The notes beneath the pieces are model-generated. The model had not been told where the DNA came from. It was given only the letters and a program-made list of their open reading frames with translations, and made no database searches. DNA of 44,273 bases from Clostridia bacterium (lineage in GTDB: Bacteria > Bacillota > Clostridia > Christensenellales > CAG-138), in assembly GCA_017395105.1 (NCBI GenBank), contig JAFPWD010000005.1, positions 1-44,273 on the forward strand, given 5' to 3'. Of the stretch, positions 14,919 through 24,788 are shown piece by piece; within the stretch, counting starts at the first letter, position 1, and every line of letters starts with the position of its first letter. The translations under genes and the position numbers were made by a program.

Positions 14919-16526
14919 TTAGCCTCCTATCTGCTTCTTGAGAGTGAGAATATTTCTGCCGTCATTGTATTCATAAACGATATCGTCCATAAGCTGCTTG
15001 GTCATGAATATCCCAAGACCGCCGATCTGCCTTCGCTCAACGGCAAGCGTAACGTCGGGATCGGGCTTTGCAAGAGGATCGTAGGGAATGCCATGATCGA
15101 TGAAGGTGATGGAAACGGTGATGGGGGAGTCCGACACCTCAATGCGAACGACGGTGCGGCCGTTTTCGGGCGCGTAGGCGTAGCTCGCAATATTCACGAA
15201 AACCTCCTCAACTGCAACCTCTATCTGCATTCGAGCCTTCATAGGGCAGCTTATCGCTTCAAGATGGGAACCGACAAACGCCAAAACCTTTTGAAGGTTG
15301 GCGGCATCGGCCTCGATATCGAGCTCGTCCGCATGCGCTTGAGCTTCACTCTCTTCGAAATACAGGCTGTCGACCCGTTCCAAAAGCTCGATAAGCTCGC
15401 GCTTGTAAAGCTCAACAGTGGCAACGTCATCATCGCTCTTAAGAGCGGTGTGCCTGATCCTCCAATCGATAAGATCGGAATAGGCTATGCAGCGCACCTT
15501 ATCCTCAACCGATGAGATGAAGGCTTCATCATTCGAGCCAAGGTAGGCGCGAAGGCTCCGCTTCCAGAATTCATCGGCGGTTATTTGAGAGAATCCCTGA
15601 AATTTTAAAACGATGGCGGGATCGTATTCTGAAAAACCAACGTAGGCATTGAATATGCGCGCGAGCTCAAAAACGGGATGTCCAACGGAGAGCTTATCCA
15701 TATCTATGAGAAGCACCTCGCCCGATGCAAGCACTATGTTTTGAGTATGATAATCGCCGTGGATGAGGCAGTTCGTATTGGGGATCTCCTCCGCCATGCG
15801 AAGGAGCTTTTCGGCGGCGCAGGTCGGAAGAAGATGCATCATCCGCTTGATATCTCCGAGCGCCTCGTCCTTAACAGCGGGGAGCTTGCCGTCGGGAACG
15901 GAGATAGAATGGATGGTATGCAGCATGTCAACGTATTCCTTTACGCACCAATCCATGCGCTCGGGCTCATCGGCAAGGATCTTTGAAAAGGAATGCGCAT
16001 TCAAAAGCTCGAACACGGAGCCGAAGCTTGAGCCAACGCGCACAACGTCGTAGGATATCGCGGTCGGCACTCCGAGTATCAGCGCAAGCCGAGCGTTTTC
16101 GCGCTCGTGCGTTATTTCGTCGAGCCCCTCGCTGCTTTTATAAACCTTAACGACTGTATCGTCGTCTAAGCGGTAGACTTTGGCGTTTGCGCCCTGACCC
16201 AAGATATCGCATCCATCAACGGACAGAACGCGGAACGCCTTTTCAACGCTCATCATATCGGTGAAGCCAGTCATTTCAAGTATTTCATAGACCTCGGAGC
16301 AAACATTCTGTATGCGAAGTTCGGGGAAATCTTTGCGAAGCCGCAGAAGGATGCGCAGACCCGCGCTTGAAATGTATTCAAGCTTCGACGCATCAAGAAT
16401 AAGCGAGCTCGGTTTGGCTGCATTGAGCTCGGCACGAAGCTTCTCTTCTTCGAGCTGTGCGCTGTTGGAGTCGATGCGCGAAGGAAGAGACAAGGTTAAA
16501 GCATTATCTGTGTTTGCGCTATCCAT
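14919..16526 (-). CDS. STAS - APH-fold kinase - HATPase (RsbW-like) triple-domain protein
   Basis: 535 aa. Residues about 5-100 form a STAS domain of the anti-sigma antagonist type; LEYISSAGLRILLRLRK holds the usual phosphorylatable Ser. Residues about 105-370 form an APH/choline-kinase-like domain: LGQGANAKVY glycine loop, VVKVYK lysine, HGDYHTQN catalytic loop near 257 and IDMDK near 274. Residues about 400-535 form a GHKL ATPase like RsbW/SpoIIAB: EVAVEEVFVNIASYAY (N box), DHGIPYDP and GGLGIFMT. The three activities of a partner-switching pathway thus sit in one chain. Neither a sigma factor target nor a PP2C phosphatase is adjacent. RBS GAAAGGACGG, 5-8 nt before ATG. First gene of an operon with the HD hydrolase and YdcF. 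Confidence 0.9.
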   Translation of the reverse strand: MDSANTDNALTLSLPSRIDSNSAQLEEEKLRAELNAAKPSSLILDASKLEYISSAGLRILLRLRKDFPELRIQNVCSEVYEILEMTGFTDMMSVEKAFRVLSVDGCDILGQGANAKVYRLDDDTVVKVYKSSEGLDEITHERENARLALILGVPTAISYDVVRVGSSFGSVFELLNAHSFSKILADEPERMDWCVKEYVDMLHTIHSISVPDGKLPAVKDEALGDIKRMMHLLPTCAAEKLLRMAEEIPNTNCLIHGDYHTQNIVLASGEVLLIDMDKLSVGHPVFELARIFNAYVGFSEYDPAIVLKFQGFSQITADEFWKRSLRAYLGSNDEAFISSVEDKVRCIAYSDLIDWRIRHTALKSDDDVATVELYKRELIELLERVDSLYFEESEAQAHADELDIEADAANLQKVLAFVGSHLEAISCPMKARMQIEVAVEEVFVNIASYAYAPENGRTVVRIEVSDSPITVSITFIDHGIPYDPLAKPDPDVTLAVERRQIGGLGIFMTKQLMDDIVYEYNDGRNILTLKKQIGG

Positions 16527-18812: not shown

Positions 18813-20252
18813 TCATTCATCCAAAACGGTTTCTATCCTTGCGTTTAAAAGCCCCTTCGGAAGATGATTTTTAATAACTCCATCCGAAAGCTTGCCGAAG
18901 CCGACGGGGAAGCTGCCGCAGCAAATGGGAAGGTATCGCGAGTACTCGCCGCGGATATCGAGAGCGGCATCCGTCTCGATCGTTTCTCCGCGAAGAAAAG
19001 CCGCGAGCTCGCCGCTCGAGAGCTCGATACGATTGCGGCAGCAAAAGCCGTGCGCCGCCATGAAGAAGGTGTGGGAAGGCTTGAGCCTACCCTTTGTAAA
19101 TTCGCCGATCTCAACACCAAGGGATACAGTGCGAAGCCTTAGTACGGAGGACGGAATATCGAACGGAGCATAAATCAGCCTGTCATTTAATGCATATAGG
19201 CTGTCGAACAGAACTTCGTTGTCCTCGAGGATGCACACGCCCGAAAGAAAGTCCGAAGCGATGCGTTTTTGCTCGCTGCCGAGAGGGGCGAGCCCCGGCG
19301 AAGCTCCGCCGCGCTTTGCGGGCTTTCGAGACAGGACGGAATTCTTATCATTTCCAACGATCGAAGGCTTGAGCGCGGAAAAAGTGTCGCAGTCACGCTG
19401 AAAGCTGCCGCTTTTTTCAAGCACCGCAACGAAATGCCCTTCGCCTGCGCAGGTATGGGGATAAAGGCGTTTTTGTGAAACAAGCGAATAATCGGAGTGC
19501 GCATTCAAAAATGCCTCGATCATGCCCTCGTTCTCTTCGGGCGAAAAGGTGCAGGTGGAATAAACGAGCCTGCCGCCATCGGCAACGCATTTTTCCGCGC
19601 TCTCAAGTATTGACTTCTGCCTTGCTGCGCAGGAAACAACGTGCTCGGGAGACCATTCGGCTATCGCGGTATCGTCCTTTCGGAACATTCCCTCGCCGGA
19701 GCAGGGAGCATCCACAATAACCCTGTCGAAAAAGCGGGGAAGCGCATCGGCTATCATATCGGGATGCGCGCTTGTGACGGCTGCATTCACAACGCCGAGC
19801 CGCTCAAGATTGCGCGCAAGCTGCTTTGCTCTTGACGGAACTATTTCGTTTGAAAGAATGAAACCGCTTCCTCCAAGCCTCGAGGCTATTCCGCCGGACT
19901 TGCCGCCGGGAGCCGCGCAAAGATCGAGAACGCGCATGCCGGGACGAATATCCGCAGCCGCAATAACGCTCATCGCGGCGGGCTCCTGAACGTAGAAAAG
20001 CCCTGCAATATGGAACGGATGCGAGCCTATATGTGGAGCTTCTTCGCGAAGTATAAGCCCCTCGTCGAGTGTTGGGGATTGCTCGATTTTCCATGGGCAA
20101 AGCTCAATAAACCGCTCCTTGCTTATCTTGAGCGTGTTAATTCTGATTCCGCGCACGGGCGGCAGCTCGTATGCGGAAATGAATGCATCATACTCAAAAC
20201 CGAGCTGCGCCGCCATGCGTTTTTTAAATGCCTCGGGAAGCGATCCTATCAT
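18813..20252 (-). CDS. rsmF: RsmF/NOL1-type rRNA (cytosine-C5) methyltransferase
   Basis: 479 aa. SAM-dependent m5C methyltransferase of the RsmB/RsmF/Nop2 family. VLDLCAAPGGKSGGIASRL binds SAM. DAPCSGEGMFRKD and STCTFSPEENEGM carry the two cysteines used for release and catalysis. VQEPAAM is typical of the N-terminal part, and the C-terminal region (YLPICCGSFPVGFGKLSDGVIKNHLPKG) is the PUA-like extension of RsmF, which modifies 16S rRNA. RBS GGACGGC before ATG. It starts 27 bp after the second ABC gene, so it is probably the last gene of that operon and subject to the same attenuator. No strong terminator follows. Confidence 0.92.
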   Translation of the reverse strand: MIGSLPEAFKKRMAAQLGFEYDAFISAYELPPVRGIRINTLKISKERFIELCPWKIEQSPTLDEGLILREEAPHIGSHPFHIAGLFYVQEPAAMSVIAAADIRPGMRVLDLCAAPGGKSGGIASRLGGSGFILSNEIVPSRAKQLARNLERLGVVNAAVTSAHPDMIADALPRFFDRVIVDAPCSGEGMFRKDDTAIAEWSPEHVVSCAARQKSILESAEKCVADGGRLVYSTCTFSPEENEGMIEAFLNAHSDYSLVSQKRLYPHTCAGEGHFVAVLEKSGSFQRDCDTFSALKPSIVGNDKNSVLSRKPAKRGGASPGLAPLGSEQKRIASDFLSGVCILEDNEVLFDSLYALNDRLIYAPFDIPSSVLRLRTVSLGVEIGEFTKGRLKPSHTFFMAAHGFCCRNRIELSSGELAAFLRGETIETDAALDIRGEYSRYLPICCGSFPVGFGKLSDGVIKNHLPKGLLNARIETVLDE

Positions 20253-20279: not shown

Positions 20280-22139
20280 TCACGCAAGCAGCTTCTCGGT
20301 GCTGTTCTCGGTGAACTGGGTGGTGTAAAGGTTGTAATAATAGCCGCGCAGCTTTAAAAGCTCCTTGTGAGTTCCGCTCTCGGTGATTTTTCCGCCGCGG
20401 ATAACGAGTATCCTGTCCGCCGAGCGGATGGTGGAGAGCCTGTGCGCAACTATGAAGCTCGTGCGGTTCTTCAAAACCTCGCCGATCGCGCTTTGGATAA
20501 GCGCTTCGGTCTCGGTATCTATGGAGCTGGTCGCCTCATCGAGCACGAAAATACGCGGATCGGCAAGTATGACCCTTGCAAAGCTTATAAGCTGCTTTTG
20601 ACCCGTGGAGAGTCTCGCGCCGCCTTCGCCGACCTCGGTATCGTAGCCCTTGTCGAGCGCGATGATGAATTCATCCGCGTGAACGAGCTTCGCCGCAGCG
20701 ATGACCTCTTCATCGCTCGCATCCTTTCTGCCGTAGCGGATATTATCCTTAATGCTTCCGCTGAAAAGATGTGGCGACTGGAGCACATAGCCAAGCCTGT
20801 CCTGAAGCCAAAGCTGACTTTTCTCTCGGTAATCTCTTCCGTCTATCAGGATCTCGCCGCTCGTGGGCTCGTAGAATCTGCAAACGAGGTTGACGATCGT
20901 GCTCTTTCCTGCGCCCGTTTCGCCAACGAGCGCGATCGTTTCGCCCTGCTTGACCTTGAGATCGAAATCCTTGAGCACCTGCTCACCACCCTTGTAGGCA
21001 AACGAAACGTTCTTGAATTCGACCTCGCCGAAAAGCTCCTCCCAGTTCTCGCGCTTGGGATCGAAGCAATCGCCGTATTTTGCGATGACCTCGGGAGTAT
21101 CGGTGATATCGCAGGGCGTGTCAAGAAGCGAAATCACGCGCTCTGCGCTCGCCTGTGCGCTTTGCATCTCGGCGAATATGCCCGCAAGCTGCTGCATGGG
21201 GTCGAAGAGATTGGTGGTGTATGAGATGAAGGCCGTCAGCGCACCGAGTGTCATAGTGGCACCGAATATCGTGGGCGCGATAACGGTTTTTCCGCCCGCA
21301 TAAAGCGCGATAGCGGTGGCGATGGAGCCGAGGGTCATAACTATCGGTGTGAAGATACCCGAGAGTATCGCCGCCTTGATCGAAGCCTTCTTCATGGTTT
21401 TGGCTTCGCTCTTGAATTCATCGAAGTTTCGATCCTCGCGAACGAGCGTTTTGGTCGTAACAGCGCCCATTATCCCCTCATTGAATGCACCAGTAATGCG
21501 CGAATTCTGCTTGCGCACTATGCGATGCTGAGCGAGTATCTTCCGCTGAAAATAAACGCTTACAACGGCGAGCGGGGGAAGCACGATCAGCACAAGCAGG
21601 CCGAGCTTCCAGTTCATCGAAAGCAGGAATATGATGCATCCGATTATAAAGCCGCCCGACCAAAAGATATCCGTCACGCTCCATGCGATCATCTCACTCA
21701 GTCGCGGGATGTCGCCAACCATGCGTGCCATGATGTAGCCGACTGCGGTTTTATCGTAATATGAGAACGAAAGCTCCTGCAGCTTTTTGAAGGCATCCTC
21801 GCGAATATCGAAGCTCATGCGCATCTCGAGCTGCCCGCAGAACAGAATGAAGCCGACAATGGATGCGCCTTGGACAACAACGAAAAGCAGGTAAACAAGG
21901 GCGAACGGAACTATATCTCCAATGCCGCTCTCGCCCTTAACTATGATCTTGTCTATCGCATACCTTGTGAGCTGTGGGTAAACAAGATCGATAAAGGCCG
22001 TAACAAGCATAAGTGCAACACCCGCAAACAATACGCGCTTGTGTCTGAGAGCATACTCAAGCAGCCTTTTCCAAAGCTTGAAATCTATTTTCTTATTAAA
22101 CTCTTCCTCTTGAAGAGCGGTCGTTGTCAACTCGTCCAT
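20280..22139 (-). CDS. ABC exporter half-transporter, subunit 2 (BmrD/LmrD-like)
   Basis: 619 aa: six-helix ABC transmembrane domain (about residues 30-330), then a nucleotide-binding domain. GETGAGKST (Walker A), QSPHLFSGSIKDNI (Q loop), LSTGQKQ (signature), IFVLDEATSSID (Walker B with catalytic Glu) and AHRL (switch His) are all intact. This is the catalytically competent partner of a heterodimer with the upstream subunit. The genes overlap by 1 nt (TGATG), with AGGAGG inside the upstream gene, so equimolar synthesis is likely. The substrate is unknown; multidrug or peptide export is usual for this type. Controlled by the attenuator at 24130-24290. Confidence 0.92.
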   Translation of the reverse strand: MDELTTTALQEEEFNKKIDFKLWKRLLEYALRHKRVLFAGVALMLVTAFIDLVYPQLTRYAIDKIIVKGESGIGDIVPFALVYLLFVVVQGASIVGFILFCGQLEMRMSFDIREDAFKKLQELSFSYYDKTAVGYIMARMVGDIPRLSEMIAWSVTDIFWSGGFIIGCIIFLLSMNWKLGLLVLIVLPPLAVVSVYFQRKILAQHRIVRKQNSRITGAFNEGIMGAVTTKTLVREDRNFDEFKSEAKTMKKASIKAAILSGIFTPIVMTLGSIATAIALYAGGKTVIAPTIFGATMTLGALTAFISYTTNLFDPMQQLAGIFAEMQSAQASAERVISLLDTPCDITDTPEVIAKYGDCFDPKRENWEELFGEVEFKNVSFAYKGGEQVLKDFDLKVKQGETIALVGETGAGKSTIVNLVCRFYEPTSGEILIDGRDYREKSQLWLQDRLGYVLQSPHLFSGSIKDNIRYGRKDASDEEVIAAAKLVHADEFIIALDKGYDTEVGEGGARLSTGQKQLISFARVILADPRIFVLDEATSSIDTETEALIQSAIGEVLKNRTSFIVAHRLSTIRSADRILVIRGGKITESGTHKELLKLRGYYYNLYTTQFTENSTEKLLA

Positions 22140-24040
22140 CAGTTTGCCTCCTGTTCCGTTTTCATTTCATCCTCAAGCAGGTTCTGGATATCGGCTATGC
22201 GCTGATACAGACCCGGCGTTTTGAGAAGCTGCTCGTGGGTGCCCTCCTGCACAAGCCTGCCGCCCTCGAGAACGAGGATCTTGTCCGCCCTTGAAAGGGT
22301 CGTTATGCGGTGCGATATTATGAAGGTTGTGCAGCCGTCGCGGCGTGATTGGAGCGCATCGCGGATGGCGGCATCGGTCTCGGTATCCACCGCGCTCATA
22401 GAGTCGTCAAGTATGATTATCGGTGCCTTCTGCATCAGCATTCGCGCAATGGCAACGCGCTGCTTCTGGCCGCCCGAAAGCGTAACGCCCTTTTCGCCCA
22501 CAACGGTTTCATAGCCTTTTTCAAACGATTTGATAACCTCATGAATGGAAGCCACGCTCGAAGCATCATACACTTCGCTCTCATCCGCCTCGGGGCGGGT
22601 GATGCGGATGTTTTCCATAATGGTTCTGGAGTACAGGAAGGGCTCCTGAAGAACTATGCCGATATTACGCCTGAGATGGTGGCGCTCGATGTCGTTTATG
22701 TTCACGCCGTCTATGAGTATCTCGCCATCTCGAACGGTATAGAGCCTTTGAAGAAGCTGCACAAGGCTCGATTTACCCGAACCCGTGGAACCGAGTATAG
22801 CCACGGTCTCGCCCGGGCTTGCGGAGAAGCTGATATCCTTCAAAACGTCCTGACCGTCCTCATAGCCGAAGCCAACTCCGCGGAACTCAACGCTGCCCTT
22901 TATTTCGGGCTGAAGCGCGCGGCCGGGCTCGGTCTCGACGGGGGCTTCAAGTATCTCGTTCAGCCTACCGAGCGAAACGCCCGCCTTTTCAAGATCGGCA
23001 AGGATGCGCCCGAGCTGGCGAACGGGCCAAACCAGCATTGCGGTATAGCTCGAAAACACGGTGAGTTCGCCAACAGAGATCTCACCCATTATAACGAAGT
23101 AAACGCCGAAGCAGAGGCTGATCGCTATCTGGATAAAGCCAAACATATCTGAAACGCCCCAGAAGAACGCCATAAGGCTGTTTAGCTTGAGCGACTTGTT
23201 TTTATAGTCCTCATTTTTTTCTGTAAACGAATCAAGCTCCGAGCGCTGCTGCCCGAAAGCACGAACGACCCTAACGCCGGCGGCATTCTCCTGAATAGCC
23301 GCGCTCAAAACGCCCTCGGATTCGTCGGAGAGCGCAAAATGCTTCTTAACGCCACGGCAGTATACGTATGCGGCAGCAGCGAGGATCGGCATCAGCATAA
23401 CCGAGATCAGCGAAAGCTTCGAGTTCATATTGAACATGATGTAGCCCGCAACGATTATCATAAATACGGTTCGAACTATCTCAAGAAGCTGATTCTGAAC
23501 GAACCTGCGCACCGTGTCCACGTCCGAGGTGCAGCGCTGGATTATATCGCCGCTCGAGATGTGCTTATGGTAGTCGTACGGCACGTTCGCAAGATGATCG
23601 TAAAGCCGAGTGCGCATATTGTAGGCAAGCTGCTCCGCACCATAGGCCACCCGGCTCCGGCGAACGAAATTTGCAAGCGCGTTCAGAGCGGTGGCAAGAA
23701 TGAGCAGTATGCCCATTATATAAAGGTTGTTGACAAGAAACTGCTTGCCGCCAAAGCTTTCCACGATGCGCTCTATCCACGGGGCAACGACCATGCTGCC
23801 CTGATAGTCCGCCTCGGCGTAATCCTTGAGCACGTAGTCGATGGTAAAGCCCGTGATAAGCGGAATGAGATACGCCGAAACTATCGCGGCGAATATGCCG
23901 AGAATGCCAAGCAGGAAATGATGCCTCGTGCCCCTGCTGAAATCGAGTGCAAGTGCGCGCACAGCCTTCCTATGCTTCTTTATTTCTTCCTTTGATGGCT
24001 TTGCAGCCGTTCCGTTTTTGATTTCCGTTATTGTTTCCAT
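22139..24040 (-). CDS. ABC exporter half-transporter, subunit 1 with degenerate Walker B (BmrC/LmrC-like)
   Basis: 633 aa from ATG 24040. A membrane domain is followed by an NBD with GSTGSGKSS (Walker A), QEPFLYSRTIMENI and LSGGQKQRVAIAR. Walker B reads IIILDDSMSAVD: the catalytic Glu is Asp, the mark of the non-hydrolysing site in heterodimeric exporters such as BmrCD, LmrCD and TM287/288. The switch reads SHRITTL. The start is uncertain: ATG 24040 has a weak AGAAGAA upstream, while a GTG at 24112 has no RBS and would add 24 residues encoded by a tandem repeat. First structural gene after the leader peptide and terminator. Confidence 0.92.
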   Translation of the reverse strand: METITEIKNGTAAKPSKEEIKKHRKAVRALALDFSRGTRHHFLLGILGIFAAIVSAYLIPLITGFTIDYVLKDYAEADYQGSMVVAPWIERIVESFGGKQFLVNNLYIMGILLILATALNALANFVRRSRVAYGAEQLAYNMRTRLYDHLANVPYDYHKHISSGDIIQRCTSDVDTVRRFVQNQLLEIVRTVFMIIVAGYIMFNMNSKLSLISVMLMPILAAAAYVYCRGVKKHFALSDESEGVLSAAIQENAAGVRVVRAFGQQRSELDSFTEKNEDYKNKSLKLNSLMAFFWGVSDMFGFIQIAISLCFGVYFVIMGEISVGELTVFSSYTAMLVWPVRQLGRILADLEKAGVSLGRLNEILEAPVETEPGRALQPEIKGSVEFRGVGFGYEDGQDVLKDISFSASPGETVAILGSTGSGKSSLVQLLQRLYTVRDGEILIDGVNINDIERHHLRRNIGIVLQEPFLYSRTIMENIRITRPEADESEVYDASSVASIHEVIKSFEKGYETVVGEKGVTLSGGQKQRVAIARMLMQKAPIIILDDSMSAVDTETDAAIRDALQSRRDGCTTFIISHRITTLSRADKILVLEGGRLVQEGTHEQLLKTPGLYQRIADIQNLLEDEMKTEQEAN

Positions 24041-24129: not shown

Positions 24130-24160
24130 AAAAAACGAGCCGCAGATATGCCTGCGGCCC
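24130..24160 (-). terminator. Attenuator terminator upstream of the ABC exporter genes
   Basis: Minus strand: GGGCCGCAG (24160-24152) pairs with CTGCGGCTC (24145-24137), 9 bp with one G-U and a 6-nt loop, followed by G and six T (24135-24130). A strong intrinsic terminator lying between a promoter plus leader ORF and the structural genes, so it must be bypassed for expression. Confidence 0.88.
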
Positions 24161-24183
24161 GATAGCTCCAAATTAGCTTAAGC

Positions 24184-24276
24184 TCAAATTAAAGCAAAAG
24201 CAGCGGACGAGGTCGCACGCGGGGAAGGGGTGAAAACACCGCCGAGGATTTTGACCGAGTTGACGTTGATGATCAT
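24184..24276 (-). CDS. 30-residue leader peptide of the ABC exporter operon
   Basis: ATG at 24276 and TGA at 24186-24184. AAAGGAGG lies 9 nt before the ATG, about the strongest Shine-Dalgarno in the window. The peptide begins MIINVNSVKILGGVFTPSPR and ends TSSAAFALI; it has no family resemblance. It starts about 27 nt after the predicted transcript start and ends 24 nt before the attenuator terminator. The layout matches regulatory leader peptides such as BmrB upstream of bmrCD, where ribosome stalling by antibiotics prevents termination (known for bmrB; inferred here). The SD (GAGGTCGCA) is perfectly complementary to codons 20-23. Confidence 0.75.
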   Translation of the reverse strand: MIINVNSVKILGGVFTPSPRATSSAAFALI

Positions 24277-24289
24277 TTTTTGCGACCTC
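24209..24289 (-). promoter_or_regulatory. Competing RNA pairings of the attenuator (SD sequestrator / antiterminator)
   Basis: Segment 1, GAGGTCGCA (24289-24281, containing the SD), is a perfect 9-bp complement of segment 2, TGCGACCTC (24217-24209, inside the leader ORF). Segment 2 can also pair with segment 3, the 5' arm of the terminator (GGGCCGCA; seven pairs with one C-A mismatch). Pairings 1:2, 2:3 and 3:4 are mutually exclusive in series. A ribosome on segment 1 would free segment 2 to block the terminator. Confidence 0.65.
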
Positions 24290-24309
24290 CTTTCCGTTAA
24301 GATGCAGCT

Positions 24310-24338
24310 ATTATATAAGAATTTCATTCGGATTGCAA
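24310..24338 (-). promoter_or_regulatory. Promoter of the leader peptide-ABC exporter operon
   Basis: TTGCAA (24338-24333), 17 bp, TATAAT (24315-24310). The predicted transcript start is near 24303. Confidence 0.75.
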
Positions 24339-24389: not shown

Positions 24390-24417
24390 TTGACATATTT
24401 GTCGGTCTGAATATAAT
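24390..24417 (+). promoter_or_regulatory. Promoter of groES-groEL
   Basis: Consensus TTGACA (24390-24395), 16 bp, TATAAT (24412-24417). No CIRCE element (TTAGCACTC-N9-GAGTGCTAA) or close variant is seen between it and groES. Confidence 0.8.
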
Positions 24418-24503
24418 ACCAGTTATAGGAAATAATATTATCGTGCGGGAATTTGGCCTTTTATCGGCCCGATCCCAAACGAATCACCCAAGGAGGAAAG
24501 GTT

Positions 24504-24788
24504 ATGAAACTCAAACCCTTATTTGACAGAGTAGTTATCAAGAGCTGCGAAGCGGAGGAGACCACCAAGAGCGGCCTCATCCTCACCGGCAACGCGAAGG
24601 AAAAGCCCCAGATGGCGGAAGTGGTCGAGGTCGGCCCCGGCGGCATGGTTGACGGCAAGGAGATCAAAATGACCGTCAAGTCAGGCGATAAGGTCATCTA
24701 TTCCAAGTACGCGGGCAACGAAGTCAAGCTCGATGGCGTTGAATACATCATCGTTCGCCAGAGCGATATCCTCGCGGTAGTCGAATAA
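24504..24788 (+). CDS. groES: Co-chaperonin GroES
   Basis: 94 aa, standard length. The 10-kDa ring that caps GroEL. KPLFDRVVIKSCEAEETTKSGLIL, including the mobile loop (EETTKSGLIL) and VGPGGMVDGKEI, identifies it. The start at 24504 follows AAGGAGGAAAGGTT; the upstream in-frame ATG lacks an RBS. It is 45 bp upstream of groEL in a two-gene operon behind a consensus promoter. The usual CIRCE operator is missing, so heat control may differ. Confidence 0.97.
   Translation: MKLKPLFDRVVIKSCEAEETTKSGLILTGNAKEKPQMAEVVEVGPGGMVDGKEIKMTVKSGDKVIYSKYAGNEVKLDGVEYIIVRQSDILAVVE

Follow-up and report, generated by a model that had tools for sequence, protein, structure and literature searches.

A putative ribosome-mediated attenuator upstream of a heterodimeric ABC exporter in Clostridia, with the Shine–Dalgarno sequence of its leader ORF as a candidate anti-antiterminator arm

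The trp attenuator is built on a series of competing RNA pairings (1:2, 2:3 and 3:4), and its leader ORF is similar in length to the one described here. The leaders studied here differ from it in that they lack control codons and that their arm 1 is the Shine–Dalgarno (SD) sequence of the leader ORF, which suggests that they read the state of initiation rather than codon-specific stalling.

Ribosome-mediated attenuation of a multidrug ABC exporter has been demonstrated experimentally for bmrBCD of Bacillus subtilis (excerpts of PMC4191407). Further experimental precedents are cplR (PMC10201436, in excerpt), vmlR (PMC9226507, in excerpt) and rli80-hflXr (PMC6310831), together with rli53 and rli59, taken from part of a review (PMC8079631). 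Like the present leader, bmrB is an upstream ORF (uORF) preceding a heterodimeric ABC exporter, bmrCD; its translation is needed for induction, and ribosome-targeting drugs act as inducers (excerpts of PMC4191407). The excerpts place three structures in nt 60–162, with the terminator inside the ORF, and describe no SD arm, whereas in the present leaders arm 1 is formed by the SD, and 18–56 nt separate the stop codon from the start of the terminator, a layout different from that of bmrB. The rli59-lmo1652 system of Listeria monocytogenes likewise has a small ORF and a premature terminator before an ABC transporter, and is opened by several classes of translation inhibitor; in the part of the review available, its mechanism is only postulated and no arms are described (PMC8079631).

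In cplR of Clostridioides difficile and in rli53-lmo0919/vgaL, the repressed hairpin sequesters the uORF and an anti-SD element is marked where the uORF region is aligned; a ribosome held on the uORF permits the anti-terminator, and otherwise the terminator forms (excerpts of PMC10201436 and PMC8079631). These systems have three-codon uORFs (MR[I/M]), ABCF ribosome-protection targets and a terminator that hides the SD of the main gene (same excerpts), whereas the present leaders have ORFs of 21–39 codons, an exporter target and an anti-SD inside the ORF, so that full translation would also mask the anti-SD. The vmlR leader of B. subtilis follows the same anti-antiterminator, anti-terminator and terminator scheme, with uORF initiation essential, but its uORF has three codons (MIN) and its SD is single-stranded before the anti-antiterminator (excerpts of PMC9226507); the sequence of that uORF matters (PMC10201436, in excerpt), whereas the peptide of the present leaders is free to change. 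Similarly, the uORF ribosome-binding site overlaps the anti-terminator hairpin in are5sc and tiaA of Streptomyces, which differ in being actinobacterial ABCF genes with other arms and short uORFs (excerpts of PMC12421871). The present family takes its place beside these known uORF attenuators with a uORF of classical length, the SD as arm 1, an anti-SD within the ORF and an exporter as target.

The window analysed here is a 44,273-nt stretch of the 1.9-Mb draft genome of a Clostridia bacterium. Contigs of near relatives are labeled Christensenellaceae or Clostridia, and their sources include sheep and water buffalo. A first-pass annotation, made from the letters of the window, had read on the minus strand a promoter, a 30-codon ORF with an SD and a 9-bp intrinsic terminator with six T, followed by exporter genes, and each of these elements was recovered (Table 1). 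The promoter is of the sigma-70 type, and transcription is predicted to start 9–10 nt 5′ of the leader SD. The terminator hairpin (24161–24136) has 11 pairs in the scan, including the end pairs, with an inner stem of 9 bp that contains one G·T. The locus thus has the parts of an attenuator, with a leader ORF bearing an SD and start codon 3′ of a promoter, and a terminator between that ORF and the target genes.

Table 1. Features of the exporter leader and downstream genes in the window
Feature	Positions	Strand	Basis
Promoter: −35 TTGCAA, 17-bp spacer, −10 TATAAT	24310..24338	−	Sequence and promoter scan
Arm 1: leader-ORF SD plus extension, AAAGGAGGTCGCA	24281..24293	−	Sequence, family comparison
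Leader ORF, 30 codons plus stop (ATG 24276, TGA), peptide MIINVNSVKILGGVFTPSPRATSSAAFALI	24184..24276	−	ORF reading
Arm 2: anti-SD inside the ORF, towards its 3′ end, TGCGACCTC; doubles as anti-terminator region	24209..24217	−	Family comparison
Arm 3: terminator 5′ arm, GGGCCGCAG; pairs with arm 2 to form the anti-terminator	24152..24160	−	
Arm 4: 3′ arm of terminator, CTGCGGCTC	24137..24145	−	
T tract of intrinsic terminator, six T	24130..24135	−	
ABC exporter subunit 1 (ABC_membrane + ABC_tran), LSGGQ, Walker B ILDDS	22139..24040	−	Domain search
ABC exporter subunit 2 (ABC_membrane + ABC_tran), LSTGQ signature, Walker B VLDEA	20280..22139	−	Domain search
rsmF-like rRNA m5C methyltransferase, 27 nt 3′ of exporter	18813..20252	−	Domain search

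The target consists of two half-transporters encoded side by side, of which one carries a degenerate catalytic site, as in heterodimeric type IV ABC exporters, an assignment that draws on the sequence and on the usual meaning of the motif residues. Subunit 1 is probably the degenerate-site subunit, taking the residues of ILDDS, LSTGQ and VLDEA to distinguish, as we assume, a degenerate from a catalytic site. As regards a relationship to BmrC/BmrD, the scores of the pair against YheI/YheH were equalled or exceeded by those against other bacterial exporters of known structure, in a comparison of scores rather than a tree. Translation of subunit 1 more likely starts at ATG 24040 than at the listed GTG 24112, because a relative with a 98% identical exporter (L002) diverges just 5′ of that ATG, which lies 90 nt from the terminator. 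The rsmF-like gene is probably the last gene of the exporter operon. As in the window, it comes directly after the exporter in 9 of 9 regions retrieved from the same genus, and it does so in 2 of 11 regions from elsewhere, so that its control by the exporter leader, as the first-pass annotation had it, is plausible mainly in the window's genus. As rsmF modifies the ribosome, a ribosome-modifying gene may there be governed by the same ribosome sensor as the exporter.

The divergent neighbors of the leader and exporter are groES and groEL. The groES promoter region (24390–24504, plus strand) contains an exact TTGACA-16-TATAAT inside a block, TTTCCTATAACTGGTATTATAT, that recurs, slightly altered, 5′ of groES in same-genus relatives. 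L012 and L013 instead carry a TTAGCACTC...GAGTGCTAA repeat there, which we take to be CIRCE-like, and comparison of these regions suggests that the heat-shock operator before groES may have been replaced in the window's genus. Elsewhere in the window, a single 535-aa protein (14919–16526, minus strand) joins STAS, APH-type phosphotransferase and RsbW-like HATPase_c_2 domains in series, a fusion of anti-sigma-antagonist, kinase-fold and anti-sigma-kinase domains.

Within the window's own leader, GAGGTCGCA (24289–24281) is a perfect 9-bp complement of TGCGACCTC (24217–24209), as the first-pass annotation had noted. The second pairing that it proposed, between this ORF segment and the 5′ arm of the terminator (TGCGACCT with GGGCCGCA), does exist, though it is imperfect, with one A·C mismatch. 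Codon permutation of the ORF gave p = 0.017 for 1:2 and p = 0.075 for 2:3. The 186-nt strand, a few bases of which belong to the promoter, has a folding energy of −66.5 kcal/mol (z = −4.1), a value equaled by 0 of 200 shuffles, and a combined SD and anti-SD pattern, itself written from the leaders, matched once in the window and in 0 of 100 shuffles. Taken alone, the window's leader is moderate evidence, and it is the relatives, rather than this leader, that establish the 2:3 pairing. Orthologous exporters were therefore compared.

Regions 5′ of the exporter were taken from 54 of 87 family genomes with a match, 49 of 49 further genomes of the order and 73 of 74 further places in the class. A detector requiring an SD, a start codon, an ORF of 10–50 codons, a terminator, a duplex of ≤ −13 kcal/mol and a permutation p ≤ 0.1 fired in 37 of 59 relatives-set regions, 15 of 44 further order regions, and 17 of 29 and 10 of 44 class regions. 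It fired in none of the controls (0/132 and 0/44 reverse-complement regions; 0/244 window tiles). This gives 78 leaders of the same plan in 176 regions 5′ of orthologous or related exporters, in 13 family-level groups, a count that leaves out four doubtful detector rows (L143, L162, L231 and L239) and includes three leaders that passed the first rule and were missed by the detector (L012, L014 and L044).

For closer analysis, 40 leaders were delimited by an SD and start rule: 39 from the family and one (L028) from another family of the order, falling into 12 genus-level groups. In these, the SD lies 13–20 nt before the start codon of an ORF of 21–39 codons, and the anti-SD sits towards the 3′ end of that ORF, at a median distance of 8 nt from the stop. 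A terminator, which the selection rule did not demand, is present after all 40 ORFs at the distance given above. A best-of search assigned −10-like and −35-like elements to 40 of 40 leaders, misplacing them in L010. Frame 0 is open as far as the anti-SD in 40 of 40 and the other two frames in 23 and 18, partly by construction, as the rule demanded an ORF.

Both pairings that involve arm 2 are conserved by co-variation. Arms were assigned by duplex folding, as a table of longest perfect runs had missed some anti-SDs. The SD extension changes together with its partner, as in GGTCGC/GCGACC, GGCCGC/GCGGCC, GAGCCGTG/CACGGCTT and GTCGCGAGG/CCTCGCGGC. When partners were exchanged between the 12 groups, the own SD:anti-SD pair was better in 5000 of 5000 draws and the own 2:3 pair in 4998 of 5000, with a cost of exchange of ~4 kcal/mol in 1:2 and ~3 kcal/mol in 2:3. 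For 2:3 this holds between genera: within group g1, swapped partners were as good in 148/5000 draws for 1:2 and in 390/5000 for 2:3, only a mild advantage for the own pair, and within g25 in 8/5000 for 1:2 and 3461/5000 for 2:3, where the own pair is no better. Codon-permuted ORFs gave p ≤ 0.05 for 1:2 in 29 of 40 leaders and for 2:3 in 12 of 40; the combined p-values (2e-29 and 1e-13) come from related leaders, which are not independent. At SD offsets 5–9, past the core, 64–75 of the 78 leaders are paired, with all six standard pair types represented, in pairs chosen by duplex folding and hence biased towards pairing. The first-pass annotation had named as its refutation homologous loci in which the ORF start and the paired segments are not conserved; the opposite was observed, as the start, both pairings and the terminator are kept while the sequence turns over, and the 1:2 / 2:3 / 3:4 series is borne out by orthologous leaders more strongly than by the window's own 2:3.

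A motif, TATGCCC(G/T), recurs slightly 5′ of the anti-SD in L005, L008, L009, L012, L048, L050 and L051, in differing frames. In some leaders it is able to pair with the 5′ arm of the terminator, and it is perhaps a recurrent anti-terminator or pause element.

Unlike the pairings, the leader peptide drifts. The anti-SD occurs in all three frames (frames 0, 1 and 2 in 14, 9 and 17 of the 40 leaders, and in 23, 31 and 24 of the 78), and in nine close pairs the substitutions are spread evenly over codon positions 1, 2 and 3 (47, 54 and 51), from which we infer that the peptide changes while the ORF and pairings stay. The nine pairs share members, two are poorly alignable, and L006/L007 carry compensating one-base gaps. 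Median peptide identity in the family is 0.20, compared with 0.17 after shuffling, and a Pfam search of the leader peptides gave no match. On sequence comparison, then, the promoter, SD, ORF, 1:2, 2:3, terminator, co-variation and neutrality of the peptide are well supported features of these leaders.

This drift bears on two kinds of peptide-dependent sensor. In an amino acid starvation attenuator of the trp or his kind, a run of codons would sense charged tRNA; the pairing logic would be identical and the leader length is classical, yet no residue is enriched in the 78 peptides (the largest being V 9.0%, A 8.9% and L 8.6%), runs of three equal residues occur in only 7 of 78 and in differing residues, and a search of leader codon usage found no control codons. 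Given also the even spread of substitutions and an exporter pair as the target, we regard starvation sensing as very unlikely. A drug-dependent arrest peptide of the erm/macrolide type, in which a specific nascent peptide and a specific drug together stall the ribosome, would account for the leader ORF and its alternative hairpins as well as for a target that probably exports drugs, and other exporter and ABCF leaders are drug-responsive (excerpts of PMC4191407 and PMC10201436). Against it stand a peptide identity near that of shuffled sequences, drift at all codon positions, the anti-SD in all frames, and the presence of RLR in 1 of 78 peptides, with no conserved arrest motif found among them. 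Arrest peptides that arose independently, species by species, are a conceivable form of this explanation, which as a whole we consider improbable. The lack of peptide conservation suggests instead that the sensor reads the location of the ribosome rather than an amino acid or an arrest peptide.

Small ORFs beside ABC exporters often encode the exporter's cargo, and the terminator directly 3′ of the leader ORF could then merely end the transcript of a small peptide destined for export or signalling, while the exporter itself would be transcribed from another promoter. Against this stand the drift of the peptide, its lack of a Pfam match and an SD complement that is kept in any frame. The promoter scan of the minus strand found no promoter-like site between the terminator and the exporter in the window, and the terminator ends ≤45 nt from the exporter match in 10 of the 40 leaders, with a smallest gap of 21 nt, which leaves little room for a second promoter. 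We therefore find the cargo explanation hardly credible.

Leaderless exporters point the same way as regards the exporter's promoter. A PriA-like C-terminus lies directly 5′ of the exporter in 14 of 19 leaderless relatives-set regions, and in the one region checked (L027) it was identified as PriA by NCBIfam. These exporters probably share the priA transcript, and the leader seems to be absent mostly where the exporter has no promoter of its own. The other 5 of these 19 regions showed no PriA end, and neither did the regions without an accepted leader in the order (30 of 44) and in the class (49 of 73). Some of the leaderless order and class regions hold distant relatives of the exporter, and about five are short contig ends.

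We then considered how the arms would behave on folding. For full-length leaders at equilibrium, the mean terminator probability over the 40 was 0.95 when free, 0.89 with the start covered and 0.92 with the stop covered, and a ribosome at the start clearly lowered it in 6 of 40. As the terminator is kept in nearly every equilibrium state, a switch must be kinetic, and because attenuators decide earlier, the unfinished transcript was folded, with arm 3 out and arm 4 unmade. Covering the SD and start then raised mean 2:3 probability from 0.25 to 0.65 (up in 30 of 40, down in 3); with four more bases it rose from 0.30 to 0.61 (up in 26, down in 0). These folds use predicted transcription starts; beginning 20 nt before the SD, with promoter bases included, gave 0.21 to 0.62 (28 up, 0 down). 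In codon-permuted ORFs the rise was just 0.11 ± 0.03, with a maximum of 0.16 in 25 sets. With a ribosome at the stop, 2:3 stayed at 0.26, below the start state in 27 of 40 leaders (30 of 40 with four more bases). L017 had no 2:3 switch in these folds.

The three falling leaders include that of the window and its near copy L002. With arm 4 unmade, covering the SD and start of the window's leader took 2:3 from 0.24 to 0.00; with four more bases transcribed it rose from 0.35 to 0.42. Its predicted anti-terminator is among the weaker of the family, and the folds fit the switching model for the family as a whole, whereas the window's member shows a weak switch rather than none.

The arms could also serve only for translational self-control or mRNA protection, with 1:2 limiting leader translation and no anti-termination of the exporter. 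In favor of this, 1:2 is the best supported pairing, equilibrium folds retain the terminator and 2:3 is weak in the window. However, the 2:3 partners co-vary between genera, and the start-covered state lifts 2:3 far above its value in permuted ORFs; we thus think it unlikely that self-control is the whole function. The SD-sequestering arm proposed by the first-pass annotation is real as a pairing, and is better called an anti-antiterminator arm than an extra layer of translational control.

The preferred reading, to which we assign a probability of roughly 0.8, is that the exporter leader is a ribosome-mediated transcription attenuator with its own SD as the anti-antiterminator arm. Transcription would begin ~10 nt 5′ of the leader SD and yield four competing RNA arms. 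With no ribosome, 1:2 would form and 3:4 would terminate. With free translation to the stop, arm 2 would be covered while arms 3 and 4 emerge, and 3:4 would again terminate. A ribosome held at the start or first codons would cover arm 1 and leave arm 2 free to pair with arm 3 before arm 4 is made; RNA polymerase would then read through into the exporter pair (and rsmF in the window's genus). The signal is likely to be anything that blocks initiation or early elongation, ribosome-targeting antibiotics being an example. Stalled ribosomes would thereby cause read-through, drugs would be both inducer and exporter substrate, and induction by translation inhibitors is expected by analogy with bmrB, rli59, vmlR and cplR.

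To follow the leader further, sequence patterns were searched. A class-leader pattern (SD GGTCGTG plus its complement) matched in 8 of 391 class genomes and in none of the controls. Five matches lie just 5′ of exporters already found, L194 precedes an exporter in a gapped contig, L192 is at a contig end, and L196 precedes two small ORFs of unknown family. The family pattern gave nine matches in 61 relatives, eight being exporter leaders and one an unrelated place, against one control match. As a class-wide marker, the family-sequence anti-SD pattern was discarded as useless, because its control matches (~28) outnumber its matches in 391 genomes (16). Rfam 15, at the gathering score, gave no leader match (one tRNA only in the window; none in 20 sources), and a search of the open-licence full-text literature turned up no description of this kind of leader from these bacteria.

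In L196 and L243 (G336:C5, ~153850–153925, minus strand), the same SD:anti-SD leader is followed by two terminator-like hairpins. It precedes two similar ORFs of ~60 aa with no Pfam match, and there is no exporter at that place.

On balance, we think it probable, with less confidence than for the mechanism, that these leaders form a class-wide family in which the uORF SD is an anti-antiterminator arm and the peptide is selectively neutral. They would act as a sequence-blind sensor of ribosome position guarding one lineage of heterodimeric exporters, often beside groESL and with rsmF in the window's genus, in which every base but the pairings turns over rapidly.

If true, this gives a search recipe, namely a short ORF that carries a complement of its SD close to its end and is followed by a terminator. 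RNA pairings alone could then preserve a translation sensor while its peptide drifts freely, which would set leaders that sense ribosome position apart from those that rely on an arrest peptide. Uncultured Clostridia of the gut and rumen would control a probable multidrug exporter through a built-in switch that is inducible by drugs, invisible to gene annotation and outside every Rfam family.
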